Positions 5,442 through 21,357 of a stretch of 43,729 nt of DNA are shown here, piece by piece (position 1 is the first letter of the stretch; every line of letters starts with the position of its first letter). Origin of the DNA: Candidatus Accumulibacter conexus (GTDB lineage Bacteria > Pseudomonadota > Gammaproteobacteria > Burkholderiales > Rhodocyclaceae). The DNA is taken from positions 1 through 43,729 of the forward strand of contig JAGFNJ010000046.1 of the NCBI GenBank assembly GCA_017592775.1. Direction: 5' to 3'. The translations under genes were made by a program, and so were the position numbers. The notes beneath the pieces are model-generated. The model ran no database searches, had not been told where the DNA came from, and worked only from the letters and a program-made list of their open reading frames with translations.

Positions 5442-7100
5442 TCAGCGTGCGGCTGCGCCGCCCGCGTCCGGCACGAGGCAATCCGCGCCGATCCCGTAGA
5501 TCGTCGCCGGCAGGGGACGTGCCAGCGGGTCAAGCTGGCTCGCCACCCTCTGGCCGATCGTGGCAGGCAGGACCGCTGCCATCGACCGCAGACCAGTGAC
5601 GATCCGTGATCCAAGCCCCATGCCGGTGGGCTCGAGTTCGCCGACTCGGCTCCAGCAGCGGGGCAGGCCATCCAGGCGGGAATAGGGGCCCTGCTGGCCC
5701 CAGTCCGCAGTCTGGCGATCGAAAACCGCGTAGGCGACAAAGCCGTCGGCGTCCGTGTCGAGCGCCATGCCCGGAGCGCCGGTGGCCAGCAACTGGATAT
5801 CGGCGATCTGCGGCACGTCAGGCGGGGAACTCGCGAAGAGTCGGGCGTAGTTCGCGGTGCGGATGGCGCTCGTCATGCCAAAAACGACGCTTCCAGGCCG
5901 CTCGCTGGCGAAGCCAAGCACCGCCTTGCTGTTGGCGACGAAGGACTGGATGACCTGTTGTTCCAGCGCTGTGCCGATGACGCCGAGAGGGATGATCACG
6001 ATCACGGCGACGAGGATCGACAGGCGGTGGCCGAGGCGCGACAGCGCATGGCCTGCAAGCAGCGCCAGCGGGGCGAGGAAGACGATCGCGTAGTTGACCT
6101 GCTTGGTGATCAGCAGCAGCGGCTTGAACGATACGATGAAGAGGCTGAAGACGCCGATCAGTCCGAGGCACCAGAGGGCCACGCGGGTCAGGCCGTCATC
6201 GTGCCGCTGCCGCGTCAGCCAGAGGAGGAGCCCCGCCGCTGCCAGCGGCCCGAGCAGCCAGGTGTGCTTGATGTCGAGCAGGAGGAGGCGAAGGTAGAAC
6301 GTCGGGTCGTTGCTCGCGCTGATTTTCTGGACGTACTCGGCGGCGCCCGAGGTCGTCATCCGCCAGATTTTCCAGAAATCGCCCTCCATGCTGAGGAACA
6401 GCAGCCCGTTCAGTACGAGCATCGCCAGGAAGCCCGTCGCCATCAGCAGCCACTTGCCGTGCCAGCGCCTTTCCCGAACGAGGTAGAGGGCAAAGACGAG
6501 GACGTAGACGAGCGCGACCGAACTCTTGATCCACCAGACAAAACCGGCTGCCAGCCCGGCGCAGAGGTAGTACACGCGCCGGCCAGTGCGATCCCCCTCG
6601 AAGAGGGCGAAGAAGCTCAGGCTGACGAAGAAGGCGAGCGGCGCGTCGGCCATCAGGCGGCCGGCGTAGTGGGCGTGCAAGGGGGTGAAGGCGAGCACGA
6701 GTCCCGACAGCACGGCGGCCCGCTCGCCCCAGAACCGCCGCGCGATCAGGTAAACGAGGGCGATCTCGCCGAGCGAGCAGAGCAGTGACCAGAGGTTGGC
6801 GACGAACTCGCTGCGGCCAAACAACCAGACCAGGAATCCGACCGGCAGGCTGATTCCCAGGCGAACGGCGCCGATGTAGTCGGCGCGGGCCCACTGTCCT
6901 TGAGCAATCTTCAGCGCTTGTTCAGTGTAGGTGACTTCGTCGGAGCCGAAGCAGCCGGTGAAGAACGCCAGGCGCAGGGTCAGGGCAGCGAGGAGCAGGG
7001 CAGGGAGCAACCAGAGCGTGCTGTCCCGGGAGGTGGCCGCACCCGCCGCGGGCTGGCCGCGCAGAGGCGCGACGACGCCCGCCTGCTGCTCGCCGTTCAT
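5442..7100 (-). CDS. ArnT/PMT-like GT-C membrane glycosyltransferase (GT39/GT83 type)
   Basis: The 552-residue product has about a dozen hydrophobic helices and a soluble C-terminal tail. After the first helix it carries FGSDEVTYTEQA with the D54-E55 pair, the catalytic acidic motif expected in the first periplasmic loop of PMT/ArnT/GT-C enzymes. Further on, HAHYAGRLMADAPLAF resembles the second conserved loop of this superfamily. These enzymes take a sugar from undecaprenyl (or dolichyl) phosphate and place it on an acceptor outside the inner membrane. The ATG at 7100 overlaps the stop of the amidohydrolase-like gene (ATGA). A frame extension running further upstream lies inside that gene and is not used. 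Confidence 0.75.
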   Translation of the reverse strand: MNGEQQAGVVAPLRGQPAAGAATSRDSTLWLLPALLLAALTLRLAFFTGCFGSDEVTYTEQALKIAQGQWARADYIGAVRLGISLPVGFLVWLFGRSEFVANLWSLLCSLGEIALVYLIARRFWGERAAVLSGLVLAFTPLHAHYAGRLMADAPLAFFVSLSFFALFEGDRTGRRVYYLCAGLAAGFVWWIKSSVALVYVLVFALYLVRERRWHGKWLLMATGFLAMLVLNGLLFLSMEGDFWKIWRMTTSGAAEYVQKISASNDPTFYLRLLLLDIKHTWLLGPLAAAGLLLWLTRQRHDDGLTRVALWCLGLIGVFSLFIVSFKPLLLITKQVNYAIVFLAPLALLAGHALSRLGHRLSILVAVIVIIPLGVIGTALEQQVIQSFVANSKAVLGFASERPGSVVFGMTSAIRTANYARLFASSPPDVPQIADIQLLATGAPGMALDTDADGFVAYAVFDRQTADWGQQGPYSRLDGLPRCWSRVGELEPTGMGLGSRIVTGLRSMAAVLPATIGQRVASQLDPLARPLPATIYGIGADCLVPDAGGAAAR

Positions 7101-7894
7101 CGCGCCGGTACCTGATAGCCGGCAAACAGGCGCTCGAGGTTGCGGTACATGATGTTCTCGATGCGGTGCGCTTCGATGCCCTGGCTGAGCATGGCGAACC
7201 GCTCGCGGATGGTCGCCGGCGGGTATTCGGGAAAGTCGGAGCCGATGGTGATCAACTGGTCCGTCGTCGAGAACAGGTAGCGCATGTCGTCGTCGAGGCG
7301 ACTGCCGGCGTAGCGCATCAGCGTGAAGGAGAAGTCGAGCATCAGGTTCGGGTTGGCGCGAACGATCTCGAACAGGTCGAGCATCGACGGGCCGGCGGCG
7401 TGCAGCAGCAGGATGCGCGTGTCGGGGCAGGCGTTGGCGATGTGGTCGATCGTGTCGGGGGCGTTCGTCGTCGCCAGTCCGCGACGCCTGAACAGCGTGT
7501 CGAGCAGGATCACCAGCCCGTGCTCGGCCGCGGCATCGAAGACGGCGATGCACTTCGCGTCGAGCGGATCGTAGCCGTTCATGCGCGGATGCAGCTTGAT
7601 GCCGGCAAAGCCCTGCGCCGCCAGCTCGGCTACCACCGCCTCGACGCGGCGCAGGGTCGGCAGGCTGCGCGGGTTGAGGCCGGCGATCGGGACGAAACGG
7701 TCCGGATGCGCGCGCGCCGACTCGATGATGATCTCGTTGTCGACGTAATCCGCGATGGCGACCAGGCAGGCGCGGTACACGCCGCCTTCCTCCATGTCCT
7801 GCAGCAGCCTGGCGAGCGATGCGTCGTAGCGCCGCTCGCCGCACCAGCTGCCGTCACGGGTGACATGTGTCAGAGAGTCGAAAAGCTTCATCAT
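7097..7894 (-). CDS. amidohydrolase-2 family TIM-barrel protein
   Basis: A 265-residue protein of the amidohydrolase-related (Amidohydro_2) type. The visible landmarks are an N-terminal FDSLTHV, GFAGIKLHPRMNGYDP near residues 94-109, a strand ending LLLHAAGPS near 155, and IGSDFPEYPP near 220. In typical members the first motif is D-x-H-x-H. Here it is D6-S-L-T-H10, so one of the metal-binding histidines is replaced by leucine and metal use may differ. AAGGA precedes the ATG. The gene overlaps the GT-C gene by 4 bases and follows the ATP-grasp gene by 17 bp. It therefore belongs to the glycan operon, perhaps as a deacylase or lactonase acting on a sugar or its substituent. The substrate is unknown. 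Confidence 0.7.
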   Translation of the reverse strand: MMKLFDSLTHVTRDGSWCGERRYDASLARLLQDMEEGGVYRACLVAIADYVDNEIIIESARAHPDRFVPIAGLNPRSLPTLRRVEAVVAELAAQGFAGIKLHPRMNGYDPLDAKCIAVFDAAAEHGLVILLDTLFRRRGLATTNAPDTIDHIANACPDTRILLLHAAGPSMLDLFEIVRANPNLMLDFSFTLMRYAGSRLDDDMRYLFSTTDQLITIGSDFPEYPPATIRERFAMLSQGIEAHRIENIMYRNLERLFAGYQVPAR

Positions 7895-7911
7895 GGTTTC
7901 CTTTCAGTCAA

Positions 7912-9129
7912 TCAGCCGACGCTGGTGAATCCGTCGTCGCCAGCCATGCGGATCCGCAGCAGGGAAATGGCACGCCGGGCGATCTCGATGACCTCGGCCG
8001 GGCTGTCGGCGAGGCTGACCACATAGCCGGGGCGGCGATCCTTGTGCTCGAGCGGACCGACTTCATCACCGGCTTGCAGGTTGAAGTGGACTGCGGCGAC
8101 ACCGGGAACCGCGGCTGCCGCGTCGGCCCCGCTGATTTCCGCGATCGTGCCCCGCGGCATGCTGAAGAACTCGATGTTGGCGGCTCGTGGAACCGCCAGC
8201 GGGTTGATGCGGATCGGCTCACCGAGTGCCCGCTCGATCATCGCCTGATTCACGTTGACCCCCGAGATGTGTGGCAGGACATGGGTGTAGATCATGACGC
8301 CGCCGCCACGCGCAGCGATGTCGAGTGGCACCACGTGCTCGCCGCTGAGCATGAACTCGGCGTGGAAGACGCCGTCCTGGAGACCGAGCACCGACAGGGT
8401 GGCGCAGGCCGTTGCCCGGATGCGCTCGTATTCGGCGCCTGGCAGCGCTCCCGGATAGTGAATGCGGGATGAGACGGTGAGCGAATCGGCAAACGGAACC
8501 TTGCGGGCGATGCCGAGGATCTGCGGCCTGCCGGCAATGACGAAGCCGTCGACGATGATCTCGCTGCCGTCGACGCAGCTTTCGATCAGCACCTCACCCG
8601 ACCGCGAGCAGCTTCGCGCGAGACGGTAGGCGGCATCCAGTCCGTCCGGTCCGGACAGTCTGCTGACGCCTCGTCCCGACTGGCTGTCCACCGGCTTGAC
8701 GATCAGTGGGTAGGCGACTTCTGCTGCCGCCGCCGTCAGACCGGCGGCCGACGACAGCAGGCGGTAACGGGGAACGACCATGCCGGCGGCGGCGGTCAGG
8801 CGACGCATCCGTCCCTTGTCGGTGAAGTTGCGCGCGGTTTCATGGCCGATTCCCGGCAGCCCGAGCCGCTCGGCGACGAAAGCGGCGGTCACGACGCCGA
8901 CATCGGTGGTGTCGCAGATGATGCCGTCGATGCGGCAGCGCGAGGCAAGCTGCAGCGTCGCTTCGCAGTCGGTGATATCGACCACCTCGTGCTCGTCCGC
9001 CAGGGCATAGGCTGGCCGCTCGCGATACATGTCGCTGACCAGAACCCGGTGCCCCAGCGCCTTCGCGAGGCGAACCGTCGGCAACTGCCAGGGCCCGCCA
9101 CCCAGCACATGCAGCAATTTCGGTTTCAT
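7912..9129 (-). CDS. ATP-grasp ligase in glycan cluster
   Basis: The 405-residue protein begins KLLHVLGGGPWQLPTVRLAKALGHRVLVSD, a pre-ATP-grasp Rossmann-like domain as in carbamoyl-phosphate synthase and PurK/PurT relatives. The ATP-grasp core follows with YPLIVKPVDSQSGRGV near residue 192, a second strand region, and VPLDIAARGGG near 306. The position normally occupied by a metal-binding E-x-N in the last motif reads D-I-A here. ATP-grasp enzymes join a carboxylate to an amine, thiol or hydroxyl through an acyl phosphate. Between a WbqC-like gene and an amidohydrolase in a sugar cluster, it may attach an amino acid or small acid to an amino sugar. That role is inference. The start at 9129 keeps the conserved N-terminal strand; a 26-residue upstream extension looks non-coding. 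Confidence 0.75.
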   Translation of the reverse strand: MKPKLLHVLGGGPWQLPTVRLAKALGHRVLVSDMYRERPAYALADEHEVVDITDCEATLQLASRCRIDGIICDTTDVGVVTAAFVAERLGLPGIGHETARNFTDKGRMRRLTAAAGMVVPRYRLLSSAAGLTAAAAEVAYPLIVKPVDSQSGRGVSRLSGPDGLDAAYRLARSCSRSGEVLIESCVDGSEIIVDGFVIAGRPQILGIARKVPFADSLTVSSRIHYPGALPGAEYERIRATACATLSVLGLQDGVFHAEFMLSGEHVVPLDIAARGGGVMIYTHVLPHISGVNVNQAMIERALGEPIRINPLAVPRAANIEFFSMPRGTIAEISGADAAAAVPGVAAVHFNLQAGDEVGPLEHKDRRPGYVVSLADSPAEVIEIARRAISLLRIRMAGDDGFTSVG

Positions 9130-9146
9130 CCTGGGTCGTTCCCTGC

Positions 9147-9878
9147 TCAGACGGGCGCAGGCCCTGGCGGGTTGCCTGGGTCGCTGCGCCAGCCCCAGAT
9201 GTACCACGGGGCTGCCGGGCCGACGTTGAACAGCAGATCAAGGATTGACAGCCGATGCTCGAAGGGCGGGTACCGTTGCGGATACTCCGGGTAGCCAGAA
9301 TAGTCCTTCCATACCAGTTCGACGCCGAGTTCGGAGAAGCGGTGCGGGTCGACGTAGTCCTGTGCGGCCGGTCCCGAGACATAGCGAGCGGCACCGGTCA
9401 TCCTCACCAGGTCGAGAAGTCGTTCGAGCTTTTGCCCCTTAGCAGCGTACTCGCGCGAGTCCCTGAACTCGGTCGTGATGCCGAGGAACTCGCGAGCGAT
9501 CTCGCGGATCAGGTAGTGGTTGAGCTGCGAGAGACTTTTCCATTCGCGGCCGAGATAGAAGTCCTGGAAGAACGGTGCGTAACGGCTGAAGTGCGGGCAT
9601 CTGCCATAGTTCTGCTGAATGGTCTTCCAGTGCTTCGTCTGCCAGAGCGGGTTGGCGATCGTAACCTCGCAGACCAGCCGGTTGCTGTCCTCTCCGGCTG
9701 GGATGGTGATCCACTCGGCCCCGTTGCCGGTCTTGATGCGGTTACGGTTGCGCCAGTCGTTCTTGGTGTACTGGAGATCATCGTAGAAGACGAACAGGTC
9801 GACATCGTGAATGATGTCGAAGTAGCCTTTCCACGGCAGGTAGTTCGACTGGAGGATGGCGAGACTGCGGGTCGTCAT
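9147..9878 (-). CDS. WbqC-like family protein
   Basis: The 243-residue protein starts MTTRSLAILQSNYLPWKGYFDII and continues with VDLFVFYDDLQYTKNDWRNRN, the hallmark of the WbqC-like family (PF08889). The family is named after an O-antigen cluster gene and recurs beside sugar aminotransferases and acyltransferases. The biochemical activity of the family is not clearly established; some members have been linked to N-acylation of amino-deoxysugars. The start chosen is the ATG at 9878, because the 32 residues encoded upstream are Arg/Ala-rich and lack similarity. It lies 17 bp upstream of the ATP-grasp gene, suggesting a joint step. Confidence 0.85.
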   Translation of the reverse strand: MTTRSLAILQSNYLPWKGYFDIIHDVDLFVFYDDLQYTKNDWRNRNRIKTGNGAEWITIPAGEDSNRLVCEVTIANPLWQTKHWKTIQQNYGRCPHFSRYAPFFQDFYLGREWKSLSQLNHYLIREIAREFLGITTEFRDSREYAAKGQKLERLLDLVRMTGAARYVSGPAAQDYVDPHRFSELGVELVWKDYSGYPEYPQRYPPFEHRLSILDLLFNVGPAAPWYIWGWRSDPGNPPGPAPV

Positions 9879-10041
9879 GTTCTGGACTCGTCGCCTGGCC
9901 AATGGCCCGCAGCGCATCCGGGTGTCAGCGCCCGGTGCGGCCGACTCGGCTGTCCGCCGCCTGCGGGTAACCAACGGCAGCCCAGTTCCGCACCGTTGCA
10001 GCTGGATCTACCAGAGCCCCTGATGCGCTCGCGGTGCCTGC

Positions 10042-10665
10042 TCATGCCACTTGAGGAGCGAGCGATCGGGGTGGAACAGGCTCCACGCCGCCTTCGTTCT
10101 GGAGGTACTCGTTCTCCAGTTGCAGCATGCGACGGCTTCGCTCCCGCACCTTCTTGGCCGGCACTCCCACGTAGACTGCCCACGCATCGGTGGACTTCGT
10201 CACCATGCTGCAGGCGCCGACCGACGATCCTTCAGCGAAAATCACGCCGGGAAAGACGACGGTTCCGGCACCAATGATGACGTGCCGGCCCAGTTCGACA
10301 CGGGCCCTGGCGATCTTTCGGTATTGCATGGGCACGGTCGGGTTGGTCAGTGCCTCTCCCGTGTAATCGTCCGACTGGGCGAAGATCGTCACGCCGAAGG
10401 CAAGTCCCGAGAAGTCGTCCATGAGCACACCTTCGCGGCCAGCGATCACCCGACATCCGTGGGCGATGTGGACGTTGCGGCCGATCTGCAGGTTGCCTGA
10501 AAGGACGCAGAAATCATCGACGATCGAGTGATCACCGATGGCGACGTACTCCGGGTCGTAGATGCGCGTCGTGCGGCTGATGAGGACATCTCGTCCAAGG
10601 CGGCGGAAGCCCATCGATTCCAGCTCCTGCCGCGAGAAATAGCGTGTGTTCTGTTCCGACGTCAT
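10042..10665 (-). CDS. hexapeptide-repeat sugar acyltransferase
   Basis: The 207-residue protein contains repeated [LIV]-G-x4 hexapeptides from about residue 40 to 170, for example IGDHSIVDDFCVLSG, IGRNVHIAHGCRVIAG, LGRHVIIGAGTVVFPG and the closing VYVGVPAKKVRER. This is the left-handed beta-helix of trimeric acetyl- and acyltransferases. The active-site histidine of the family could be the one in HIAHG or in GRHV. The gene starts at the ATG at 10665 with a strong AAAGGAAG upstream. It probably O- or N-acetylates a sugar of the glycan made by this cluster, with acetyl-CoA as donor. About 160 bp without recognisable features separate it from the WbqC-like gene. Confidence 0.83.
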   Translation of the reverse strand: MTSEQNTRYFSRQELESMGFRRLGRDVLISRTTRIYDPEYVAIGDHSIVDDFCVLSGNLQIGRNVHIAHGCRVIAGREGVLMDDFSGLAFGVTIFAQSDDYTGEALTNPTVPMQYRKIARARVELGRHVIIGAGTVVFPGVIFAEGSSVGACSMVTKSTDAWAVYVGVPAKKVRERSRRMLQLENEYLQNEGGVEPVPPRSLAPQVA

Positions 10666-10765
10666 CGATCTTCCTTTAGCTGTGCGATCAAACGGTGTGC
10701 CCAAGGCGGCTGGTCATTGTCCGGATGGCCTTCGGCATGTGAGGTGGTCCGCTGGCAACGGATGC

Positions 10766-11752
10766 TCACCGGTGAATGTCCTTCACGATATAGGTCGGCC
10801 GGTTCTGGACCTGGGTGAAGACCTTGCCCAGGTAGATGCCGACGAGCCCGATGGCCATCGTCAGGATCCCCAGGCTGAGCGCGATCAGCCCCATGACCGA
10901 TGTGAAGCCGAGCAGGGAATCGCCAAAGAGCAGCTTTCTGATCACCAGATAGATGGTGTAGGAAAAGCTGGCGAAGGTCACCAGGGCGCCAAAGTTGAAC
11001 AGCCAGACCAGGGGTTGCGCCGAGAACGAACTGACGGCGTTGATCATCAGGTTGACGCGCTTGAAGAGCGTGTAGGTGCTCGCTCCTGAGCGCTGGCTCT
11101 TGCCCACTGCGAGGCCGATCTGATGGAAGCCGGTCCAGCTCATCATCCCGCCGAGGAAGAGGTTGTGGTCGCCCAACTGCAGTAGCGCGTCGACGAAACG
11201 GCGGTTCATCAGGCGCTCGGTGACGATGTTTTCGGGAATCTTGGTTTCGCTCAGCAGGTTGAAGCCTTTCCAGAAGAGGCCACCGCTGATCTGCTCGAAC
11301 CAGCTCCCCTTCCTCTTCTCCTGATAGCCGAAGACCATGTCGCAGCCGGTTTCGTGCAGCTTGTCGTGGAACGAACACAGGGTCAGCGGGGAGACCTCGA
11401 GATCGCAGTCGATCAGGAATACCAGATCGCCACGCGCCTCGCGCAGGCCCGCCTGCATGGCATGGTGGTGGCCAAAATTGCGTGACAGGTCGACGACCAC
11501 CAGTTGCGCCACATCCTGACGGCGTGCCAGCACGTAGTCGAGCGAATCGTCCGGGGAGCCGTCGTTGACCAGGACGATTTCGAAATCGACGATGGCGAGC
11601 CGGCGCAGTGCCTCCAGACAGCCGGCGAGGAAGTCCTCGAGGAATGGCCGCGAACGGTACAGGGTCGAAACGATGCTGATCTGTGGTCGTGGCGGTCCAA
11701 GGACCTGTGGCGGCTGGCTCTGAGGCAGCTCCTGCAACGTGGTGGGCATCAT
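10766..11752 (-). CDS. GT2 glycosyltransferase, GtrB-like, first gene of the glycan cluster
   Basis: The 328-residue protein has ISIVSTLYRSRPFLEDF at the start of a GT-A fold, IVLVNDGSPDDSLDYV, LSRNFGHHHAMQAGL, and the metal-binding motif FLIDCDLEV. Two membrane helices near residues 230-260 and 270-300 follow, and the end is KVFTQVQNRPTYIVKDI. This is the GtrB/undecaprenyl-phosphate glycosyltransferase layout. It is distinct in sequence from the other GT2 at 3195-4226, so the cluster probably loads two different sugars onto the lipid carrier. The start is one of two consecutive ATGs at 11752; an upstream extension of 52 codons shows no similarity. The 233 bp upstream would hold the operon promoter, but I see no clear one. 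Confidence 0.83.
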   Translation of the reverse strand: MMPTTLQELPQSQPPQVLGPPRPQISIVSTLYRSRPFLEDFLAGCLEALRRLAIVDFEIVLVNDGSPDDSLDYVLARRQDVAQLVVVDLSRNFGHHHAMQAGLREARGDLVFLIDCDLEVSPLTLCSFHDKLHETGCDMVFGYQEKRKGSWFEQISGGLFWKGFNLLSETKIPENIVTERLMNRRFVDALLQLGDHNLFLGGMMSWTGFHQIGLAVGKSQRSGASTYTLFKRVNLMINAVSSFSAQPLVWLFNFGALVTFASFSYTIYLVIRKLLFGDSLLGFTSVMGLIALSLGILTMAIGLVGIYLGKVFTQVQNRPTYIVKDIHR

Positions 11753-11985
11753 CCGAGGCGGTTCCCCCGTGGCGTCAATGGCACATCCGTGGCGACCGGA
11801 TGTCGGCTGGAGCGGGATTGCTGCTGCACTTCGCCGATCCAGAGGCCGCCAATGATAACCCGTGGTGCGCACGGATCCCGCCAAATAAATCACGCTCTTG
11901 GCCGCCAACGAGGCAGGCGCGCTGCTGCCCGACTGGCCCTGCGTCTGCCTGCGCGTTGGGCAAGGCTGACGCTTCTGCTGCCGCC

Positions 11986-13215: not shown

Positions 13216-15201
13216 TCAGAAATGGATACCGCGCATGATCTGCGAGAAGGCGACCTGATCCGCTGTCTGTGGCGCGGGCTCGTTCGGCTTGTGCGCGGCG
13301 GCGCTGGAATCGGGGAACATGCGAAAGCTGGTGTTCATGACGACCTGTGCCACCTTCGGCATCAGCGAATGCAGCAGGGCGCCGAAGATCCCCAGCCGGG
13401 TGGCAATGCGGACCGGCTTGTGGATGATCGCTTCGACGACCATGTCGGCGGCTTCGTCCGGTGTCAGCGTCGGCACCTGGTCGTAGAGCTTGGTCGGGGC
13501 GATCATCGGTGTCTTCACCAGCGGCATGTTGATGGTGGTGAACTCGATGCCGCGATCGGCAAACTCCGACGCCGCACAGCGCGCCCAGGCGTCCATCGCT
13601 GCCTTCGAGGCGACGTAGGCGGAGAAGCGGGGCGCGTTGGTGAGGACGCCGATCGACGAGATGTTGATCACGTGGCCCTTGCGCTTGGCGATCATTGCCG
13701 GCAGGAAACCCATCGTCAGCCGCAAGGCGCCGAAGTAGTTGACCTCCATCGTCCGCTCGAAGTCATGGAAGCGGTCGAAGGAGTTCTCGATGCCGCGGCG
13801 GATCGAGCGGCCGGCGTTGTTGACCAGAATGTCGATGCCGCCATGCTCCTCGTTCATGAACTTGACGAATGCCTCGCACTGCTGCGGGTCGGAGACGTCG
13901 ACCGCGTGCGTGATCAGGCGCAGCCCGGCATCCTCGAACTCCTTGCGGACTTCGTCGAGCGTCTTCGCGTCGCGCGCGATTGTGACGGCAATCGCGCCCG
14001 CTTCGGCCATCTTGCGGATCGTCGCCTTGCCGATTCCCGACGAGCCGCCGGTCACCAGAACCACCTTGCCTTCGACCTGCCCGCGCAGCGTCCGGTCGAT
14101 GAACAGGTCGGGGTCGAGATGGCGCTCCCAGTAGTCCCACAGGCGCCAGGCGTAGCTGTCCAGCGGCGGCACCGCTATGCCGCTACCCTTGAGCGCGCGC
14201 TGTGTCTCGCGGCAGTCGAAACGCGTCGGGTAGTTGACGAAATCGAGAATGTCGTCGGGCAGCCCCAGATCCTTCATGACCGCGGTACGGATCCGCCGCA
14301 CCGGGGTCAGCGCGAACATTGCCTTGCGCATCGAGCGCGGGATGAAGCCAAGCAGGGCGGCATTGATGCGCATCGCCATTTCCGGCGCGTGAGCTGCGCG
14401 GGCGAAGGTGTTGAGCAGGTCGCCGACGCGCATCGGCATCGGGTCCGTGAGATGGAAGCACTGGCCATCCTCGTTGTCGAGGTGCGCAATGTGGTCCATC
14501 GCGGCGACGACGAAGTCGACCGGTACCACATTGATGCGCCCGCCCTCGATGCCGATCGTCGGCATCCACGACGGAAACATCCGGCGCATCTTCTGGATCA
14601 GCTTGAAGAAGTAGTAGGGGCCGTCGATCTTGTCCATTTCGCCGGTGCGCGAATCGCCGACGACGATGGCTGGCCGGAAGATGCGCCACGGGATCTTGCA
14701 CTCCTGGCGCACGATACCCTCGGAATCATGCTTGGTGCGGAAGTACGGATTCTCGAGGTTCTCCGCTTCTTCGAACATGTCCTCGCGAAAGAGTCCCTCG
14801 AAGAGGCCGGCGGAGGCAATCGAACTGACCAGATGAAAGTGCTTGGCACCGAGTTCCTCGGCCAGCCTGACCGTGTTGCGCGTGCCGTCGACATTGGCTC
14901 GCTGCTGCTCCTCGGCGCTCGCCTTGAGATCGTAGATGGCGGCGAGGTGGAAGAAGTGGTCAACCCGGCCCTTGAGCTTGCGCACGTCTGCCTTGGCGAC
15001 GCCGAGTTCGGACTGTGTCAGGTCGCCAACGACCGGGATGGCCCGGCTCTCGTCGCAGCCCCAGTAGTCGTACCATTCCTGCAGGCGGGGCTGTTCAACG
15101 GCGCGCGTCAGGAAGTAGACGGTGGCTTCAGGGCGCGCAAGCAGCTTGGCGACCAGCCGCTTGCCGATGAAACCGGTGGCGCCGGTGACAAAGTAGATCA
15201 T
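13216..15201 (-). CDS. two-domain fatty acyl-CoA/fatty aldehyde reductase (Marinobacter Maqu_2220 type)
   Basis: The 661-residue protein joins two Rossmann domains. The N-terminal one is an extended SDR/male-sterility-type reductase with TGATGFIG (G7-x2-G10-x2-G13) and the active-site pair Y153-x3-K157 in NPYFRTKH. The C-terminal one is a classical SDR with TGGSSGIG at 384-391, NNAG at 461, serines at 515-516 and the catalytic Y529-x3-K533 in AYVASK. Length, domain order and long stretches match my memory of the Marinobacter enzyme that reduces fatty acyl-CoA and fatty aldehyde to fatty alcohol with NADPH, the first committed step of wax ester synthesis. The start at 15201 has GGGGAGA upstream and gives exactly the family length; an in-frame ATG 11 codons earlier is less likely. 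The gene diverges from the phasin gene, with 177 bp between them. Confidence 0.85.
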   Translation of the reverse strand: MIYFVTGATGFIGKRLVAKLLARPEATVYFLTRAVEQPRLQEWYDYWGCDESRAIPVVGDLTQSELGVAKADVRKLKGRVDHFFHLAAIYDLKASAEEQQRANVDGTRNTVRLAEELGAKHFHLVSSIASAGLFEGLFREDMFEEAENLENPYFRTKHDSEGIVRQECKIPWRIFRPAIVVGDSRTGEMDKIDGPYYFFKLIQKMRRMFPSWMPTIGIEGGRINVVPVDFVVAAMDHIAHLDNEDGQCFHLTDPMPMRVGDLLNTFARAAHAPEMAMRINAALLGFIPRSMRKAMFALTPVRRIRTAVMKDLGLPDDILDFVNYPTRFDCRETQRALKGSGIAVPPLDSYAWRLWDYWERHLDPDLFIDRTLRGQVEGKVVLVTGGSSGIGKATIRKMAEAGAIAVTIARDAKTLDEVRKEFEDAGLRLITHAVDVSDPQQCEAFVKFMNEEHGGIDILVNNAGRSIRRGIENSFDRFHDFERTMEVNYFGALRLTMGFLPAMIAKRKGHVINISSIGVLTNAPRFSAYVASKAAMDAWARCAASEFADRGIEFTTINMPLVKTPMIAPTKLYDQVPTLTPDEAADMVVEAIIHKPVRIATRLGIFGALLHSLMPKVAQVVMNTSFRMFPDSSAAAHKPNEPAPQTADQVAFSQIMRGIHF

Positions 15202-15295
15202 CCCATTCTCCCCATGTTGGTAGCCTGTGGTCATGTTGCGCGCTTTCCCAGCACCCTTGGCTGGAGGACCCTGCGCAGACCTTTAGTGTGCGTCC

Positions 15296-15314
15296 TCTAG
15301 ATATTGTCACTAGA
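15296..15314. promoter_or_regulatory. possible operator: inverted repeat between acyl reductase and phasin genes
   Basis: In the 177 bp between the divergent acyl reductase and phasin starts there is an inverted repeat TCTAG-N9-CTAGA inside an AT-richer patch (about 15285-15365). A TTGACC at 15344-15349 could be a -35 element, but no good -10 is spaced from it on the plus strand. A repeat of this size fits a TetR-type dimer site, and a PhaD-like regulator is encoded 2 kb away, but five-base arms can occur by chance. Confidence 0.25.
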
Positions 15315-15378
15315 CTCTCTTCTCAGGGCAAGCAAAAAACTTGTTGACCTCTTGATTATCGTGTTTAAGGAGACCGAA

Positions 15379-15972
15379 ATGGGCAAGAAACTCAAGGAAC
15401 TGGCTGGTGGCGTGAGCGAGAACCAACTGGCGTCGACCGTCAAGGAATCGGCCCAGCAGATCTGGTTGGCGGGGCTTGGCGCCTTTGCCAAGGCGCAGGA
15501 AGAAGGCGGCAAGGTGTTCGACGCGCTGGTCAAGGAAGGCGAGAGCATTCAGTCGAGGACGCGCAAGATGACCGACGAGCGGATCGCACAGGTGGCCGGC
15601 AAGGCGGCGGGCACGTGGGACCGGCTCGAGCAGGTTTTCGAGGACCGGGTTGCACGAGCGCTGGGCAGCCTCGGCGTTCCGAGCAAGCAGGATATCGAAC
15701 GTCTCTCGCGGCGCGTCGTTGAACTGAGTGCGGCCGTACAGGCGCTGACCGAAGGGAAAGCGCCGCCCAAGGCAACTGCCAGAGCCGCCCGGCCGGCGAC
15801 GCAGGAGGCCGCCGGCACTGCCGTCGAGCCTGCGGAGAAGGCGCCTGCGAGCAAGCCGGCGACCGCGCGGCCGGCAACGCGCCGTGCCGCTGCCAAGCCG
15901 GCTGCCGCCAAGGCGGTGCCGCCGGTGACGCCGGCCGACGTGCTCAGCACGATTCCGCAGGCAGGCGAGTAA
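15379..15972 (+). CDS. PhaF/PhaI-type phasin (polyhydroxyalkanoate granule-associated protein)
   Basis: The 197-residue protein has an N-terminal amphipathic helical region with the phasin signature: ESAQQIWLAGLGAFAKAQEE near residues 26-45, then KVFDALVKEGESIQSRTR. A second helical stretch carries the leucine/valine heptads LSRRVVELSAAVQAL near 115-130. The tail from about 130 to 185 is rich in Ala, Pro, Lys and Arg, with AAKPAAAK-like repeats. This resembles the DNA-binding, histone-like tail of Pseudomonas PhaF. Phasins coat PHA inclusions, and PhaF also ties them to the nucleoid. The start at 15379 has AAGGAG nine bases upstream; a 25-codon extension is unlikely. A strong hairpin follows the stop. 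Confidence 0.87.
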   Translation: MGKKLKELAGGVSENQLASTVKESAQQIWLAGLGAFAKAQEEGGKVFDALVKEGESIQSRTRKMTDERIAQVAGKAAGTWDRLEQVFEDRVARALGSLGVPSKQDIERLSRRVVELSAAVQALTEGKAPPKATARAARPATQEAAGTAVEPAEKAPASKPATARPATRRAAAKPAAAKAVPPVTPADVLSTIPQAGE

Positions 15973-15981
15973 GCTGCCGTG

Positions 15982-16003
15982 TGCGGGGCCAGCAGGCCCC
16001 GCA
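15982..16003 (+). terminator. hairpin after the phasin gene
   Basis: A 9-bp perfect stem (TGCGGGGCC / GGCCCCGCA) with an AGCA loop begins ten bases after the phasin stop. No real T-run follows, so it may work as a stabilising 3' hairpin or a weak terminator. The 213-bp gap to the patatin gene holds nothing else I recognise. Confidence 0.5.
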
Positions 16004-16185
16004 GCCTTCGTCCAGCGCCGGGTCCGGCCGACGGTCGGCGGCGTAGGTCACGTCGCGGGCGAGGAGGCTGCCGCGTTGCCTGGTCGGCTTCGGTCACTGC
16101 TGGCGCGCTGGCGGCAGCGTTGCCCACAAACCAGCAGGCAAGCGGTTGCCACCGTCCGCCTCCCCATCGTGAAAGGACGACCTTG

Positions 16186-17403
16186 ATGAACGCTGCGACG
16201 ACGCATCCGATGATCGGCTTGGCGCTTGCCGGCGGTGGCCCGGTCGGGGGTATCTATGAGGTCGGCGCGATGGCTGCTCTGGCGGAAGCGCTCGACGGGG
16301 TGGACTTCACCGCTTTCGGCATTTACGTCGGCGTCAGTTCCGGGGCGTTCATCTCGGCGGCGGTCGCCAACGGACTCGGGCCCGACAAGCTGGCGCGGAT
16401 GCTGGTCGAGAATGACACGGATGAGGTGTTCGATCCCGAGATGCTGCTGCGACCCGCCTTCGGCGAGTACTTGCGGCGTGCGCTGGCACTCCCGGTCCTG
16501 TTCTGGTCCGCGCTTCGCCAGTACCTGTCGGATCCTTGGCATCTGCGTCTGATCGAGGCCTTCCAGAGCCTGAGTCATGCCATTCCGGCCGGGGTCTTCA
16601 ACAGCGGGGGCATTGATCAACTGCTTCGCCGGCTCTTTTCCAGCGGTGGCCGCACGAACGACTTCCGGCAACTGAAGCACCGCCTGTTCATCGTCGCGAC
16701 CGACCTCGACACCGGGGAGTCGGTCGCCTTCGGGTCGCCCGCATACGCGGACGTGCCGATTTCGGTCGCGGTCCAGGCCAGCGCCGCGCTGCCGGGGCTG
16801 TTTCCACCGGTGCGCATCGGCGACCGCTATTTTGTCGATGGCGCTCTGATCAAGACTCTGCACGCTTCGGTGGCGCTGCAGGCCGGTGCCGAGTTGCTCA
16901 TCTGCATCAACCCACTGGTGCCGTTCGACTCGCGCCTGGCGGCACAGCGACCGCTGCACGAGAATCAGCCGCATGCCCCCGAACACCTGGTCGACGGTGG
17001 TCTGCCGGTGGTCCTGTCACAGACCTTCCGCGCCATCATCCATTCGCGTATGCGCACCGGGATGGATCGCTATCGCCACGAATTCGAGGGCCGGGATGTC
17101 GTCCTCTTCGAGCCGACCCGTGACGATGCCGACATGTTCTTCACCAACGTCTTCAGCTATCGTGGGCGTAGCCGGCTCTGCGAGCACGCCTATCAGCGCA
17201 CGCGCAGCGATCTCTACCGACGGCGGCACGAACTGCGGCCGATTTTTGCCAGGCACGGCATCGAACTCAATCTCGGTGTACTGAAGGATCACAGCCGTTC
17301 GCTCCTGCCGCACAAGCGCCGTCCCGACCTGGCCACGAGCGCCAGCGCACTGGACGCCACATTGGCGGACCTCGATCGCTGGTTGCGGGCGCAGCAGGCC
17401 TGA
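16186..17403 (+). CDS. patatin-like phospholipase / lipid acyl hydrolase
   Basis: The 405-residue cytoplasmic protein has the patatin catalytic set. It shows the oxyanion-loop glycines LALAGGGPVGG at residues 12-22, the nucleophile elbow G49-V-S51-S-G53, and the Asp of the Ser-Asp dyad in YFVDGAL (D217). The family hydrolyses acyl esters of phospholipids, triacylglycerols or other neutral lipids without a classical triad. The C-terminal half (about 230-405) is Arg-rich and not recognisable beyond the patatin domain. The ATG at 16186 is preceded by GAAAGGACG. A 69-codon upstream extension is Arg-rich and unlikely. Neighbours (phasin, PhaD-like regulator, WS/DGAT) suggest a lipase of storage lipid or a membrane-lipid recycling enzyme. 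Confidence 0.82.
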   Translation: MNAATTHPMIGLALAGGGPVGGIYEVGAMAALAEALDGVDFTAFGIYVGVSSGAFISAAVANGLGPDKLARMLVENDTDEVFDPEMLLRPAFGEYLRRALALPVLFWSALRQYLSDPWHLRLIEAFQSLSHAIPAGVFNSGGIDQLLRRLFSSGGRTNDFRQLKHRLFIVATDLDTGESVAFGSPAYADVPISVAVQASAALPGLFPPVRIGDRYFVDGALIKTLHASVALQAGAELLICINPLVPFDSRLAAQRPLHENQPHAPEHLVDGGLPVVLSQTFRAIIHSRMRTGMDRYRHEFEGRDVVLFEPTRDDADMFFTNVFSYRGRSRLCEHAYQRTRSDLYRRRHELRPIFARHGIELNLGVLKDHSRSLLPHKRRPDLATSASALDATLADLDRWLRAQQA

Positions 17404-17512
17404 GTGGCCCTGGTCGCCGCAGTGTGCGATGCGCGTCGATACCGGCGAGGATTCCCCGCTGCCCCGCGGAGTGCTATCCTGCTCTTTGCCGAGCGATCAC
17501 CACGGAGAGCGG

Positions 17513-18160
17513 ATGGACAGGAAACCGAAGCGGCGTACGCGCGAGCGCATCATCGAAACGAGCCTGCGCCTGTTCAACGACTTTGGTGAGCCGAACGTGA
17601 CCACCACGGTCATTGCGGACGAGATGAACATCAGCCCGGGCAACCTCTATTATCACTTTCACAACAAGGACGAGATCCTGGAGTCGATCTTTGCCGTCTT
17701 CGAGCGGGAGATCGAGGACACCCTCGCTGCGCCAACCCGACGACCTGCCGACGTGGAAGACATCTGGCTGTTCCTGCATCTGCTTTTCGAACAGATCTGG
17801 AAGTACCGCTTCTTCTACCGCGACCTGAATGACCTGCTGACGCGCAATCGCCTGCTGGAAATCCATTTCCGGCAGATCCTCGCGCACAAGGTGCGGACGG
17901 CGACGACCCTCTGCGAGAGCCTGGTTCTGGCGGGCGCCATGCGCGCCAGCAGTGACGAGTTGCGGGCGCTGGCGACGAACATGACGGTCATCGCCACCTA
18001 CTGGCTGTCGTACGAATACGCGTGTGATCCGCGTGGCAGGCTTGAAAGCGGTCGCATTGGACGCGGCGTCTATCAGGTGATGGCGATGCTGTCACCATTT
18101 CTGGTCGGCGAATCGAAGGGCCTGCTCGACCGGCTGTCAAAGGAATACCTGGTCGCCTGA
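17513..18160 (+). CDS. TetR-family regulator resembling PhaD
   Basis: The 215-residue protein opens with RTRERIIETSLRLFNDFGEPNVTTTVIADEMNISPGNLYYHFHNKDEIL, given here in pieces: RERIIETSLRLFNDFG, then a helix-turn-helix ending ISPGNLYYHFHNKDEI. That close wording, and the later WLFLHLLFEQIWKYRFFYRD and YQVMAMLSPFLV, match what I remember of PhaD, the TetR-like regulator of the Pseudomonas pha cluster that controls the phasin operon in response to a CoA intermediate. GGAGAG precedes the ATG. It lies 109 bp after the patatin gene and 49 bp before the TPR gene, all on the plus strand. Likely targets are the phasin, acyl reductase and WS/DGAT promoters, but no operator can be proven here. Confidence 0.78.
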   Translation: MDRKPKRRTRERIIETSLRLFNDFGEPNVTTTVIADEMNISPGNLYYHFHNKDEILESIFAVFEREIEDTLAAPTRRPADVEDIWLFLHLLFEQIWKYRFFYRDLNDLLTRNRLLEIHFRQILAHKVRTATTLCESLVLAGAMRASSDELRALATNMTVIATYWLSYEYACDPRGRLESGRIGRGVYQVMAMLSPFLVGESKGLLDRLSKEYLVA

Positions 18161-18209
18161 GCGGGCGCCGGTGACAACAGAGCTTTCCCAACCTATCGAG
18201 GAGGATGCC

Positions 18210-18983
18210 ATGGCCTGGAACAAGTTTCCCTATCCCGACAAGGCGTACGGCCATGCCGGCGCAGCCTTGCAGCAGAACTGGGCACGCCTGCATCGCGGCG
18301 ACTGCGAACCATTCCCCGCCGATACGAAGCTGCAGGATGCCTGGCGAAGGTATCACGCCGGTGATTTCGAACAGGCGGTCGCTGCCGGACTGGCCTGCGG
18401 CATCGCAGGTTACAATGTCGCCAACAAGGCGACGACGATCTACGCGAGCTATCTCGAGACCAGCGATGAGCGCAAGCTCAGCCTGCTGAACGAGGTGGCG
18501 CAGCGTTGCGAGGAGCAGCAGGAGAAGAAGCCGGACGATGCCAACGCCTGGTATCTGCATGCTTTCGCCCTCGGTCGCTACAGCCAGAGCATCTCGGTCG
18601 TCAAGGCGTTGGCGCAGGGGCTGGGTGGCAAGATCAAGCACAGCCTGACGCAGGCGCTGGCGCTGCAGCCCGCGCACGCCGACGCGCATATCGCCCTGGG
18701 TGCCTATCATGCCGAAGTGATCGACAAGGTTGGCGCGTTGGTTGGCGGCATCACCTACGGCGTCAAGAAGGATATCGGCAGGGAACTCCTCGAAACAGCG
18801 ATGAAACTCAACCCCGACTCGGCGATCACCCGCATCGAGTACGCCAACGCGCTGCTCCTGATGTTCGGCAAGACGAAGATGAAGGAGGCCGAGCGGCTGT
18901 ACGGGGAAGCTGCAGCCTGCGTGCCCCTGGACGCCATGGAACGGCTCGACGTCGAGGCTGCGAAAGCTGAACTCGCCGACTGA
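18210..18983 (+). CDS. TPR-repeat protein of unknown function in the storage-lipid island
   Basis: The 257-residue protein has no signal peptide. It contains at least three tetratricopeptide-like helix pairs: one around residues 40-75 (AWRRYHAGDFEQAVAAGLAC), one at 105-165 (NAWYLHAFALGRYSQ through ALALQPAHADAHIALGAYH), and one at 195-245 (METAMKLNPDSAI-like stretch through MKEAERLYGEAA). Between the second and third is a Gly-rich segment, VGALVGGITYGVKK. GAGGAGG lies eight bases before the ATG. TPR proteins act as scaffolds, so binding to lipid enzymes or granules is possible but unproven. The position after the PhaD-like gene is the only functional clue. Confidence 0.65.
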   Translation: MAWNKFPYPDKAYGHAGAALQQNWARLHRGDCEPFPADTKLQDAWRRYHAGDFEQAVAAGLACGIAGYNVANKATTIYASYLETSDERKLSLLNEVAQRCEEQQEKKPDDANAWYLHAFALGRYSQSISVVKALAQGLGGKIKHSLTQALALQPAHADAHIALGAYHAEVIDKVGALVGGITYGVKKDIGRELLETAMKLNPDSAITRIEYANALLLMFGKTKMKEAERLYGEAAACVPLDAMERLDVEAAKAELAD

Positions 18984-19108
18984 GGGCCTGTCGGGACATC
19001 GTCGCGAGCAGGCCAGGACGCAAGACGCGAGCGAGCGACGAGTCAGATCCCGTGGAGCGGCGCGATGGTCTGCCGACTCTTGTGCCGCACGTTGCGCGTC
19101 GCCGTCGG

Positions 19109-19138
19109 CCGTTCCCGGCAGGCCGCGGCCGGGAACGG
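19109..19138. terminator. hairpin between converging TPR and WS/DGAT genes
   Basis: An 11-bp perfect stem (CCGTTCCCGGC / GCCGGGAACGG) with an 8-base loop lies in the 213 bp between the two converging genes. It could terminate transcription from either side. There is no T-run on either strand, so a Rho-independent role is only probable. Confidence 0.45.
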
Positions 19139-19196
19139 TTGAGCAACGCTGCACGCTGGCGGCGCAACCGACGCATGCACAACGTTCGCGGCAGGC

Positions 19197-20708
19197 TCAG
19201 CCAGATTCGTGAGCGCCGTTCCGGCAGCTCAGGGCGAGCACATCGTCCGCCACGAGCAGCGGATCGGCCAGCCGATCCGGAGTCTCGAGCAGTGCCAGCC
19301 ACAGGAGCTTTTCGAATTCGCGGCCGAACTGGTCGGCGATCAGTTGCGGATCGTCGACCATGTTCCGGTCGCTGATGAGGCCGAACTGGACGCAGCCATG
19401 GTAGGACAGGATGCTGACGCCGATGCCGATGTCGCCGGCCTGCGGCACCCATGCCAGTTGCTGCACGATCCTGCAGCCGGCGAGGAAGCGCACCGCAGGT
19501 GACCCCGGTACGTTGGTCATCACCGCCGTCGTCTTGCTGGTCAGCAGCTTGAGGATCTGGTCCTCGACGAACCTCGGCGCCATACCGACGGCACCAAGCA
19601 GGGCAAAGGTCAGCATCGCCTGATACGAGGACTTCAATGCGGCCATCCTGGCTCGCGTTGCGTAGAGGCGGGCGAGCGGGTTGTCGCTGGCGAGCGGCAA
19701 CTCGAGCGCGACCAGACCGAAGCGGTTGCCAAGTTCCTCGCTGTCACCCGGTTGTCGGAGGTTGACCGGCACCATGGCGCGAATCTCGACTCCTTCCACC
19801 GCATTGCCCCTGTTCACCAGATAGCTGCGCATGGCGCCGGCGACCGAGGCGAGCAGCAGGTCGTTGACCGAGCACGAGAGCGCCCGGCCGACGGCCTTGA
19901 TCTCTGCCAGCGGCAGCGGTTCCGACCAGGCGACGCGCTTGACGGTGCCCGCCTTTCCCTTGAAACGCGTCCGTGTGTCATCGGGCATCAGGGCGAGCCT
20001 GCCAATCTCCTCGGCAACGGCCCGGGCGACGCTGGCATAATCGCGCAGACCTGCCGGATCGCGGCGCAGCCCCTGATACTGGCCCCAGAGGTTGCCACCG
20101 AGATTCAGCGAAGCCTGCGCCACGTCGGCAAGCGGTTCAATCACCGTGCGCCAGAAGCCGCCGCCCGTGCCGCCGTTGGCGTCGCGCTGCCGGCGCGCCG
20201 GCCGTTCGGCTGGCACTGTCGCCGGCTGACCAGCGTTCGTCGGCGCGTCGGCCCGGTCATCGGTCAGCGAGTCGATGACGCCAATCAGGGCGATGCCGTC
20301 GGCGATGGCGTGGTGGATGCGGATGACGATGGTCGAGTTGCCGTCAGCCGTGTCCACGACGTTGAACTCCCAGCGTGGCCGTGCCGGGTTGAGCGGCGTG
20401 CTTGCCATCTCGGCGACGAAATTCTGCAGTTCATGTTTGCCGCCGGGCGGCGGCAGGAACGACCGGCGAACATGCGCTTCAATGGCAAAGTCCGCATCGT
20501 CCACCCACCATGGACCATCCGTGTCCTCTCTGATGATCTGCCGAAAGCGCCGGTAGTGCGGCAGCCGCCCAGCAACCGTCCGCTTCAGTCGCTCGTCATC
20601 GATGCGGCCGCTGCAGACCATGATCCCGAGGATCTGCATCAGGTTCTCCGGACGATCCATTCGCAGCCAGGCCGTGTCGACGCTGGAGACTCTTTCGCGC
20701 GCGGTCAT
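19197..20708 (-). CDS. wax ester synthase / diacylglycerol acyltransferase family (WS/DGAT)
   Basis: The 503-residue protein shows the WS/DGAT signatures. The catalytic H132-H133-A-I-A-D137-G138 lies in RIHHAIADG, PLNPARPRWEF sits near residue 105, SVNDLLLASVAGAM near 275, VPVNLRQPGDSEELGNRFG near 310, and a C-terminal DUF1298-type domain contains SYHGCVQFGL near 450. Enzymes of this family use acyl-CoA to esterify fatty alcohols (wax esters) or diacylglycerol (triacylglycerol) at the cytoplasmic membrane, and many have both activities. The length fits the family (about 450-510). It diverges from the ACBP gene with only 76 bp between the starts. With the acyl reductase nearby, wax ester production is a reasonable prediction. 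Confidence 0.9.
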   Translation of the reverse strand: MTARERVSSVDTAWLRMDRPENLMQILGIMVCSGRIDDERLKRTVAGRLPHYRRFRQIIREDTDGPWWVDDADFAIEAHVRRSFLPPPGGKHELQNFVAEMASTPLNPARPRWEFNVVDTADGNSTIVIRIHHAIADGIALIGVIDSLTDDRADAPTNAGQPATVPAERPARRQRDANGGTGGGFWRTVIEPLADVAQASLNLGGNLWGQYQGLRRDPAGLRDYASVARAVAEEIGRLALMPDDTRTRFKGKAGTVKRVAWSEPLPLAEIKAVGRALSCSVNDLLLASVAGAMRSYLVNRGNAVEGVEIRAMVPVNLRQPGDSEELGNRFGLVALELPLASDNPLARLYATRARMAALKSSYQAMLTFALLGAVGMAPRFVEDQILKLLTSKTTAVMTNVPGSPAVRFLAGCRIVQQLAWVPQAGDIGIGVSILSYHGCVQFGLISDRNMVDDPQLIADQFGREFEKLLWLALLETPDRLADPLLVADDVLALSCRNGAHESG

Positions 20709-20738
20709 TGCAGGGGCCCCGGGGAAATTTCAAGACCA

Positions 20739-20770
20739 TATAATAGCAAGCCGTTGCAACCGATCATCAA
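20739..20770. promoter_or_regulatory. AT-rich divergent promoter region of WS/DGAT and ACBP
   Basis: The 76 bp between the two divergent starts contain a consensus -10 TATAAT at 20739-20744 on the plus strand, about 40 bp before the ACBP start. On the minus strand it contains TATTAT (20745-20740) preceded by TTGATG (20770-20765) with a 19-base spacer. The plus-strand -35 is poor. The overlap implies that one regulator could control both genes. Confidence 0.4.
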
Positions 20771-20784
20771 CCGGAGAAACCAGC

Positions 20785-21045
20785 GTGAGTGACCTGACAG
20801 CCCAATTCGAGGCCGCCGTGGCCAATTCCAAGACACTGCCCGAGCGCCCCGGCAACGCCACCTTGTTGAAGCTGTACGCGCTCTACAAGCAGGCGAGCGA
20901 GGGCGACGTCAGCGGCAGGCGTCCGGGCTTTACCGACATGGTCGGTCGTGCCAAGTTCGATGCCTGGGCGGCGCTGCAGGGCACGACGGGCGAGGAAGCG
21001 ATGCAACAGTACGTCGCACTGGTGGAGCAGTTGCGGGCAGGCTGA
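20785..21045 (+). CDS. acyl-CoA-binding protein (ACBP)
   Basis: This is an 86-residue four-helix protein matching the ACBP family in length and motif order. LTAQFEAAVANSKTLPERPGNATLLKLYALYKQA is seen here in parts: AVANSKTLPERPGN, then LLKLYALYKQASEGD, then RPGFTDMVGRAKFDAWAALQG. The KLYxLYKQAxxGD box and the K-x-DAW motif, which bind the CoA phosphate and adenine, are intact. ACBPs bind medium- to long-chain acyl-CoA and deliver it to acyltransferases. They are universal in eukaryotes and scattered in bacteria. The start is a GTG at 20785 with GGAGA upstream; this gives the exact family length. It is divergent from WS/DGAT, a likely consumer of its cargo. Confidence 0.92.
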   Translation: MSDLTAQFEAAVANSKTLPERPGNATLLKLYALYKQASEGDVSGRRPGFTDMVGRAKFDAWAALQGTTGEEAMQQYVALVEQLRAG

Positions 21046-21078
21046 GCCCTTGCCTGCACGAGCGCTTCCCGGGCGGCT

Positions 21079-21357
21079 TCAGACCGGGAAATTCTCATCG
21101 AAGAAGCGGTGAATCTCGCGCTCGATCGTCGGTTTGAGGGCGAAGAGCAGGAATCCCAGGCGGATGTTGAGGGCGACTTGGTGCTCGTCGACCGCCAGAT
21201 CTCCCGAGACACCGGGCCGCTTGAAGCGCATGACGTCACCGCTCCAGGAATAGCTGAGGTCGAATTCCTCGTTCAACTCGGCCGCCATGTGTTCGGCCGA
21301 GGCTCGTGCCTCGCTGAGGCTCTTGCCGTGGCGGCGGCGGATGACGATGTCACTCAT
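21079..21357 (-). CDS. polyhydroxyalkanoic-acid-system family protein (PHA_gran_rgn)
   Basis: This 92-residue protein reads IVIRRRHGKSLSEARASAEHMAAEL, then a strand with SYSWSGDVMRFKRPGVSGDLAV and a basic C-terminal helix (ALKPTIEREIHRFFD). It fits the small family annotated as putative polyhydroxyalkanoic acid system protein (PF09650/TIGR02610), found beside PHA genes and of unknown biochemical role. The ATG at 21357 has GGGAG upstream. It lies 22 bp downstream of rsgA on the same strand, so it is probably the last gene of the M48-phhB-rsgA operon. It converges with ACBP, 33 bp apart. Confidence 0.8.
   Translation of the reverse strand: MSDIVIRRRHGKSLSEARASAEHMAAELNEEFDLSYSWSGDVMRFKRPGVSGDLAVDEHQVALNIRLGFLLFALKPTIEREIHRFFDENFPV

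Follow-up and report, generated by a model that had tools for sequence, protein, structure and literature searches.

The window analysed here, 43,729 nucleotides from Candidatus Accumulibacter conexus (contig JAGFNJ010000046.1), carries an island of eight genes that encode a fatty acyl reductase (FAR), a phasin, a patatin-like lipase, a TetR regulator, a tetratricopeptide repeat (TPR) protein, a wax ester synthase/diacylglycerol acyltransferase (WS/DGAT), an acyl-CoA-binding protein (ACBP) and a protein of the PHA_gran_rgn family (PF09650). We consider it likely that this island is a self-contained system for neutral-lipid droplets of wax ester, equipped with a coat, a lipase and a PhaD-like regulator of its own, and that it stands beside the storage of polyhydroxyalkanoate (PHA). 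A sequence-only reading of the same DNA had proposed a combined wax ester and PHA island in a betaproteobacterium. The organism is a betaproteobacterium, of the genus of Candidatus Accumulibacter, and profile searches together with intact motifs recovered all eight genes as placed and in the order given. As to function, our results support that reading in part, and we replace the combined system by a probable neutral-lipid droplet system, with its own phasin and a likely regulon, beside PHA.

Co-occurrence of gene families

Gene families were counted in 121 genomes of the order, collapsed to 94 genera, with PF03007 standing for WS/DGAT and PF07167 for the PHA synthase PhaC. The family of the island phasin, PF05597, was found in 48 of these genomes, WS/DGAT in 50, PhaC in 102 and a different phasin family, PF09361, in 100, while FAR was found in 47 genomes, or 20 genera. 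All 48 genomes with PF05597 had WS/DGAT and 47 of them had FAR; 54 genomes with PhaC were without PF05597. By genus, PF05597 was present in 21 of 23 with WS/DGAT and in none of 71 without (Fisher 5e-19), and in 20 of 20 with FAR against 1 of 74 without (Fisher 2e-19). For PhaC the figures were 21 of 75 and 0 of 19 (Fisher 0.0055), and the 54 PhaC genera without PF05597 are not what would be seen of a family that serves PHA and tracks its synthase. PF09361 did behave in this way, being present in 100 of the 102 PhaC genomes and none of the 19 others, or in 73 of 75 genera against 0 of 19 (Fisher 6e-18). Among the PhaC-positive other genera, PF05597 still tracked WS/DGAT (20/22 versus 0/52). The island phasin family thus tracks WS/DGAT and FAR, not PhaC, and the PHA side has its PF09361 phasins elsewhere. 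This mismatch lowers the case for a PHA phasin but not that for a phasin-type coat. In a review (PMC5658603, legend to Figure 3), PhaP1 of Ralstonia eutropha is assigned to PF05597, a placement that contrasts with the tracking of PHA synthase by PF09361 seen here.

In a wider sample of the class (274 genomes, of which two, G000 and G120, are also in the first set; G labels denote sampled genomes and L labels fetched stretches or loci), PF05597 was found in 11 genomes, WS/DGAT in 17 and both in 8 (Fisher 5e-9), so that the link holds but is looser, and PF05597 occurred in 5 of 65 PhaC genomes (0.14). Related clusters occur in other orders of the class. L178, from a 100%-complete genome with no PhaC match, groups a phasin, a patatin, a PF13972 TetR and WS/DGAT, and L179, from a genome that is 84% complete and has no PhaC match, groups a TetR, a PF05597 phasin, PHA_gran_rgn, AGPAT/HAD, GPAT and WS/DGAT. 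L181 holds ACBP, WS/DGAT, a phasin and a TetR in a genome (G238) that does carry PhaC, and G336, with no PhaC match, has PF05597 and WS/DGAT on separate contigs. In L184 and L185 (G182 and G334, genomes with no WS/DGAT or PhaC match) a PF05597 phasin adjoins PHA_gran_rgn, and these pairs may be what is left of a storage system that was lost.

The gene content for wax ester that had been read from the sequence, FAR plus WS/DGAT, is borne out by profile for both families and by the company they keep. WS/DGAT was present in all 20 FAR genera of the order as opposed to 3 of the 74 without FAR, and in all 50 FAR-carrying named genomes queried (of 80), even when the two genes are not adjacent; in Acidovorax and Hydrogenophaga it is present but outside the fetched FAR stretch. 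WS/DGAT enzymes are bifunctional, and the main product could instead be triacylglycerol, with the alcohols made by FAR destined for another use or formed under some conditions only. L179, in which the phasin and PF09650 occur together with GPAT/AGPAT, the three genera with WS/DGAT but no FAR, and G379, with FAR and no WS/DGAT match, all favor this alternative. We nevertheless regard it as rather unlikely, given that FAR always came with WS/DGAT in the 94 genera and the 50 named genomes and that FAR and the phasin have a common promoter region.

A promoter element common to the phasin loci

When the FAR/phasin intergenic region was aligned across the genus, a nearly invariant block appeared. 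We trained a weight matrix on the 107 distinct FAR/phasin intergenic regions from all genera, and its consensus is the dyad TTAGTGTG-N4-CTCTAR; 76 of the 107 scored above the 99th percentile of shuffles, a partly circular figure, and across much of the Acidovorax-Hydrogenophaga side the dyad is weak or absent. The same dyad recurs in loci held out from training. Elsewhere in the genome of origin (contig C50, L174 6841-8992), a second WS/DGAT is divergent from a second PF05597 phasin, and the dyad between them (L174:8354-8371) scores 28.4 bits. The second PF05597 phasin was found in 23 of 28 same-genus genomes, each time 0.6-2.5 kb from the second WS/DGAT, and all 20 held-out second loci of other Accumulibacter carried the dyad at 18.0-31.1 bits, located 98-102 bp before the phasin start in 17 cases and 218-219 bp before it in 3. 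It is also present in two further second loci (L237 and L238), with L239 cut by a contig end. The genome of origin has a third WS/DGAT (contig C54, L093 9412-10827), and in the 19.9 kb fetched for this locus no dyad scored more than 9.1 bits.

No dyad above 10 bits was seen in any of 23 PhaC or PF09361 regions of 5.5-18 kb each. Over 207 stretches, 3.15 Mb in all and picked for carrying these or PHA genes, 97 of 97 hits of at least 18 bits fell upstream of a PF05597-like phasin and no more than 400 bp from it, most of the hits being in regions used for training and some contigs being counted twice.

Of 87 distinct sites, 73 have a hexamer of the form TA[ACG][AG][ACT]T exactly 10 bp beyond the dyad, and this fixed spacing to a -10-like hexamer puts the dyad at the -35 position. 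No good -35 hexamer was seen by eye at the dyad promoter. An element so placed suits an activator, which is what PhaD is said to be in the passages of PMC7204398 consulted, although a repressor is possible. The label PhaD-like fits the island regulator, a PF13972 TetR alongside a PF05597 phasin that is preceded by a conserved site, and from its linkage to the element this TetR is probably the binder of the predicted dyad.

These data bear on the idea that the island coordinates wax ester and PHA jointly, with the phasin and the PF09650 protein on shared or on both granules and the TetR regulating both. PHA capacity is present in the same cell, as had been supposed, with PhaC found in all 47 FAR genomes of the 121 and in 49 of the 50 named FAR-carrying genomes queried; in the genome of origin, a 4.87-Mb draft in which the window is contig 44, PhaC is on contig C59, outside the island. 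PF05597, PF09650 and the PhaD type of TetR are all named for PHA, and the Ala/Lys/Pro-rich tail of the phasin is PhaF-like. Against this stand the 54 of 75 PhaC genera without PF05597, the PF09361 phasins of the PHA side, the 0 of 23 PHA regions with the element and the existence of L178/L179-type clusters in genomes with no PhaC match. We therefore judge joint coordination to be unlikely, though shared granules are conceivable; the same phasin-family and element evidence lends no support to a phasin and PhaD-like regulator that are there for PHA, or to an island that ties wax ester to PHA.

Conservation and arrangement of the island

FAR stretches were compared from 26 of 27 other genomes of the genus, leaving out G025, in which FAR is split over two contigs. 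The linkage is conserved in these relatives, with all eight genes matched in 22 of the 26, a count that takes in short or interrupted WS/DGAT copies and three genomes in which the genes lie over two contigs. In the other fetched stretches, G004 was without ACBP, G007 and G021 without WS/DGAT and ACBP, and G002 without WS/DGAT, ACBP and PHA_gran_rgn. G002, G007 and G021 retain the second WS/DGAT, but without a second phasin or the element there.

Beyond the genus and its nearest neighbors the flanks (ProQ at one end, RsgA/M48/Orn at the other) differ, and the block persists. In G034, G054, G109 and G120 it is in two parts, FAR-phasin-patatin-TetR-TPR and WS/DGAT-ACBP, the latter including PHA_gran_rgn in three of the four. 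A similar picture comes from named relatives, counted as the best 80 of 586 confirmed loci, some of which are from the same genomes as the G labels and many of which are cut by contig ends. FAR and the phasin were divergent neighbors in 77 of the 80, and near FAR we found the phasin in 78, TetR in 63, patatin in 61 and the TPR protein in 58, with WS/DGAT in 32, ACBP in 25 and PHA_gran_rgn in 18. Cultivable relatives that have all or most of the block include Rhodoferax antarcticus (L161), Acidovorax facilis (L129) and Ramlibacter sp. Leaf400 (L124). Synteny inside one genus proves little, since the flanks are conserved there too, and the block could in principle be held together by chance or hitchhiking of genes with unrelated jobs. 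That these genes stand in an unchanged order in other genera, where their flanks differ, that the block splits into two stable sub-blocks and that an independent second locus bears the same element make this highly improbable. Extra stretches of 1-5 kb lie between block genes in L057, L048, L061 and L064, after WS/DGAT or after the TPR protein.

Proposed role of the island

In the system we propose, FAR would convert fatty acyl-CoA to fatty alcohol, and WS/DGAT would join the alcohol to acyl-CoA, carried by ACBP, to form wax ester, with triacylglycerol as a possible further product. The resulting droplet would be coated by the PF05597 phasin, with the PF09650 protein as a second surface protein, and the basic tail of the phasin may anchor the droplet to the nucleoid. 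The store would be mobilized by the patatin lipase, and the TPR protein may shuttle lipid into or out of the droplet. The sequence that the PhaD-like TetR probably recognizes is TTAGTGTG-N4-CTCTAR, which occupies the -35 position of a predicted phasin-patatin-TetR-TPR operon and of the divergent FAR gene; the TetR probably also acts at the second WS/DGAT-phasin locus, which would make the two loci one regulon. The same cell would make PHA with PF09361 phasins and from genes in which no element was detected.

A broader claim, which we put forward only tentatively, is that throughout this order the PF05597 "PHA phasins" are coats of wax ester or triacylglycerol droplets under a PhaD-like regulon (TTAGTGTG-N4-CTCTAR-N10-TAnACT) separate from PHA. 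If this is true, it follows that Accumulibacter holds a further, unrecognized store of carbon and electrons that has a coat and a lipase of its own, a cytoplasmic TPR protein for lipid transfer and two synthase loci acting in coordination.

Several observations weigh against a dedicated lipid droplet system. The PhaF protein of Pseudomonas, which serves PHA granules, is a PF05597 phasin, so the family is not confined to lipid. The co-occurrence is partly inheritance as a single block, because genera are non-independent units and the island itself holds FAR, WS/DGAT and the phasin. In the class sample, 3 of the 11 PF05597 genomes (G182, G334 and G379) had neither WS/DGAT nor PhaC and 9 of the 17 WS/DGAT genomes were without PF05597, and G379 groups FAR, phasin, TetR and PHA_gran_rgn with no WS/DGAT match. 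Within Accumulibacter, the island WS/DGAT has one in-frame TGA each in G005, G008 and G011 and is short in G023, while G002, G007 and G021 retain FAR and the phasin with neither the island WS/DGAT nor ACBP, which suggests repeated decay of this gene within the genus, or draft errors. The element exceeded the shuffle threshold in 0 of 55 WS/DGAT-ACBP intergenic regions, so there is no visible sign that the synthase of the island itself belongs to the regulon. PhaD regulates pha genes in Pseudomonas, according to the part of PMC7204398 consulted. According to PMC2667194, Rhodococcus jostii produces both triacylglycerol and wax esters and has no proteins of high similarity to known phasins, and a phasin-type lipid coat is therefore not general.

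Relation to known systems

The medium-chain-length PHA cluster of Pseudomonas, phaC1ZC2DFI, as described in the passages of PMC7204398 consulted, resembles the island in its TetR and phasin genes and in its logic of synthase, hydrolase, regulator and coat. The island differs in having no PhaC or PhaZ and in having WS/DGAT, FAR and patatin instead. With no PHA synthase among its eight genes it is not a member of the pha clusters; by analogy, it may be viewed as a Pseudomonas pha cluster in which the PHA enzymes have been swapped for wax ester enzymes. The wax ester pathway of Marinobacter, with the FAR Maqu_2507 and a WS/DGAT, uses the same two families, and compared with it the island adds a coat, a lipase, a regulator and a TPR protein in one place.

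The two families also meet in PMC10351704, which reports betaproteobacterial WS/DGAT metagenome scaffolds from Antarctic and Subantarctic sediments. In the parts consulted, these scaffolds resemble the island in that WS/DGAT adjoins ACBP, a Maqu_2507-like FAR (about 59% identity) and a PHA-system protein, with a phasin on one other scaffold. Since its core was already present there, this kind of neighborhood is not new, and the earlier statement that no locus with this exact set had been described stands only in part. The passages in question say nothing of a TetR, a TPR protein, a shared promoter element, a second locus or co-occurrence of phasin and WS/DGAT, the main text does not contain the word patatin, and the phasin is treated as part of PHA metabolism, unlike in our reading. 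In the open-access literature on Accumulibacter storage lipids and phasins, mostly titles and the starts of abstracts, we found no description of the locus in the genus.

Accumulibacter is the polyphosphate accumulator that drives biological phosphorus removal in sludge, and discussion of how it balances carbon and electrons under anaerobic conditions is framed around polyphosphate, glycogen and PHA. A metaproteomic study from 2008 (PMC2289847) postulated stored fatty acids or neutral lipid in Accumulibacter as added reducing power, and the section with this postulate names no gene for neutral-lipid synthesis. The postulate is now testable, because the island is a conserved group of genes, with a likely switch, that would provide such a store. 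More generally, PF05597, although it takes its name from PHA, appears to mark neutral-lipid storage in this order, so that annotations would have to be reread, and the order offers cases on which to examine how a single family of coat proteins came to serve two kinds of storage body.

Gene content and coordinates

Genes were called with Pfam and NCBIfam profiles, and the likeliest starts (Table 1) were judged by eye; the sequence-search queries for the phasin, patatin and TPR protein start 1, 2 and 13 codons 5' of them.

Table 1. Features of the island, in window positions
Feature	Position	Strand	Basis
FAR, two-domain, Maqu_2507-type architecture	13216..15201	-	NF005539, PF07993 + PF00106; likely start 15201
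Divergent FAR/phasin promoter region	15202..15378	.	Block kept in same-genus alignment
Predicted operator dyad TTAGTGTGCGTCCTCTAG	15283..15300	+	Alignment, weight matrix, held-out test
-10-like TAGACT	15311..15316	+	10 bp past dyad
PhaF-like phasin, Ala/Lys/Pro-rich tail	15379..15972	+	PF05597, TIGR01837
Patatin-like lipase, proposed droplet lipase	16186..17403	+	PF01734
PhaD-like TetR regulator	17513..18160	+	PF13972; PDB sequence neighbors 3nnr, 3rh2
All-helical TPR protein	18210..18983	+	TPR_17 (weak), AlphaFold model
WS/DGAT wax ester synthase/acyltransferase	19197..20708	-	TIGR02946, PF03007, PF06974; PDB 7nxg, 6chj
ACBP, GTG start	20785..21045	+	PF00887
PHA_gran_rgn protein, small alpha+beta fold	21079..21357	-	PF09650, TIGR02610

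FAR scored 1013.9 bits with NF005539 (cut-off 549), with an N-terminal NAD_binding_4 and a C-terminal adh_short domain, and both nucleotide-binding motifs and both YxxxK pairs were invariant in 13 aligned sequences. It has the length of about 660 residues typical of the Maqu_2507 type, and it was the one full-length match in its genome, 18 further matches spanning the C-terminal short-chain-dehydrogenase part only. WS/DGAT scored 372.3 bits against the full-length profile TIGR02946 (curated cut-off 309.95) and has the HHxxxDG motif as HHAIADG; the motif was present in 72 of 74 WS/DGAT-like open reading frames of the fetched loci, paralogues counted. By its sequence the enzyme would make wax ester or triacylglycerol. 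The phasin scored 135 bits with PF05597 (cut-off 28.8) and 101 with TIGR01837 (94.7), and TetR scored 149.9 with PF13972. The patatin has intact GxSxG and DGA motifs, and GxSxG with DG[AG] was found in 83 of 83 homologous open reading frames kept from the fetched loci. The PHA_gran_rgn protein scored 91.8 bits with PF09650 (cut-off 26.6), and its model (pLDDT 90.1) had START-like proteins among many fold matches.

By sequence the TPR protein had only a weak match to TPR_17. Its AlphaFold model is all-helical (pLDDT 95.8), with top matches, at 15-21% identity, to the TPR domain of PTPIP51, the bacterial TPAT transporter 8g52, the bacterial sterol transporter 7t1s and TatT. The modeled fold appears to resemble those of lipid-carrying TPR proteins, and the protein may transfer lipid; it differs from lipid-binding TPR proteins in having no export signal obvious by eye.

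Outside the island, the window encodes isocitrate dehydrogenase (- strand) adjoining the kinase/phosphatase AceK (+ strand), the switch of the glyoxylate bypass, at 33223-36569, 12 kb from the island, and a small ankyrin-repeat protein at 31000-31614. Upstream of the island, at 3195-11908, are two family-2 glycosyltransferases, a PMT_2 glycosyltransferase and an ATP-grasp L-amino-acid-ligase-like protein, which may form a surface polysaccharide stretch.

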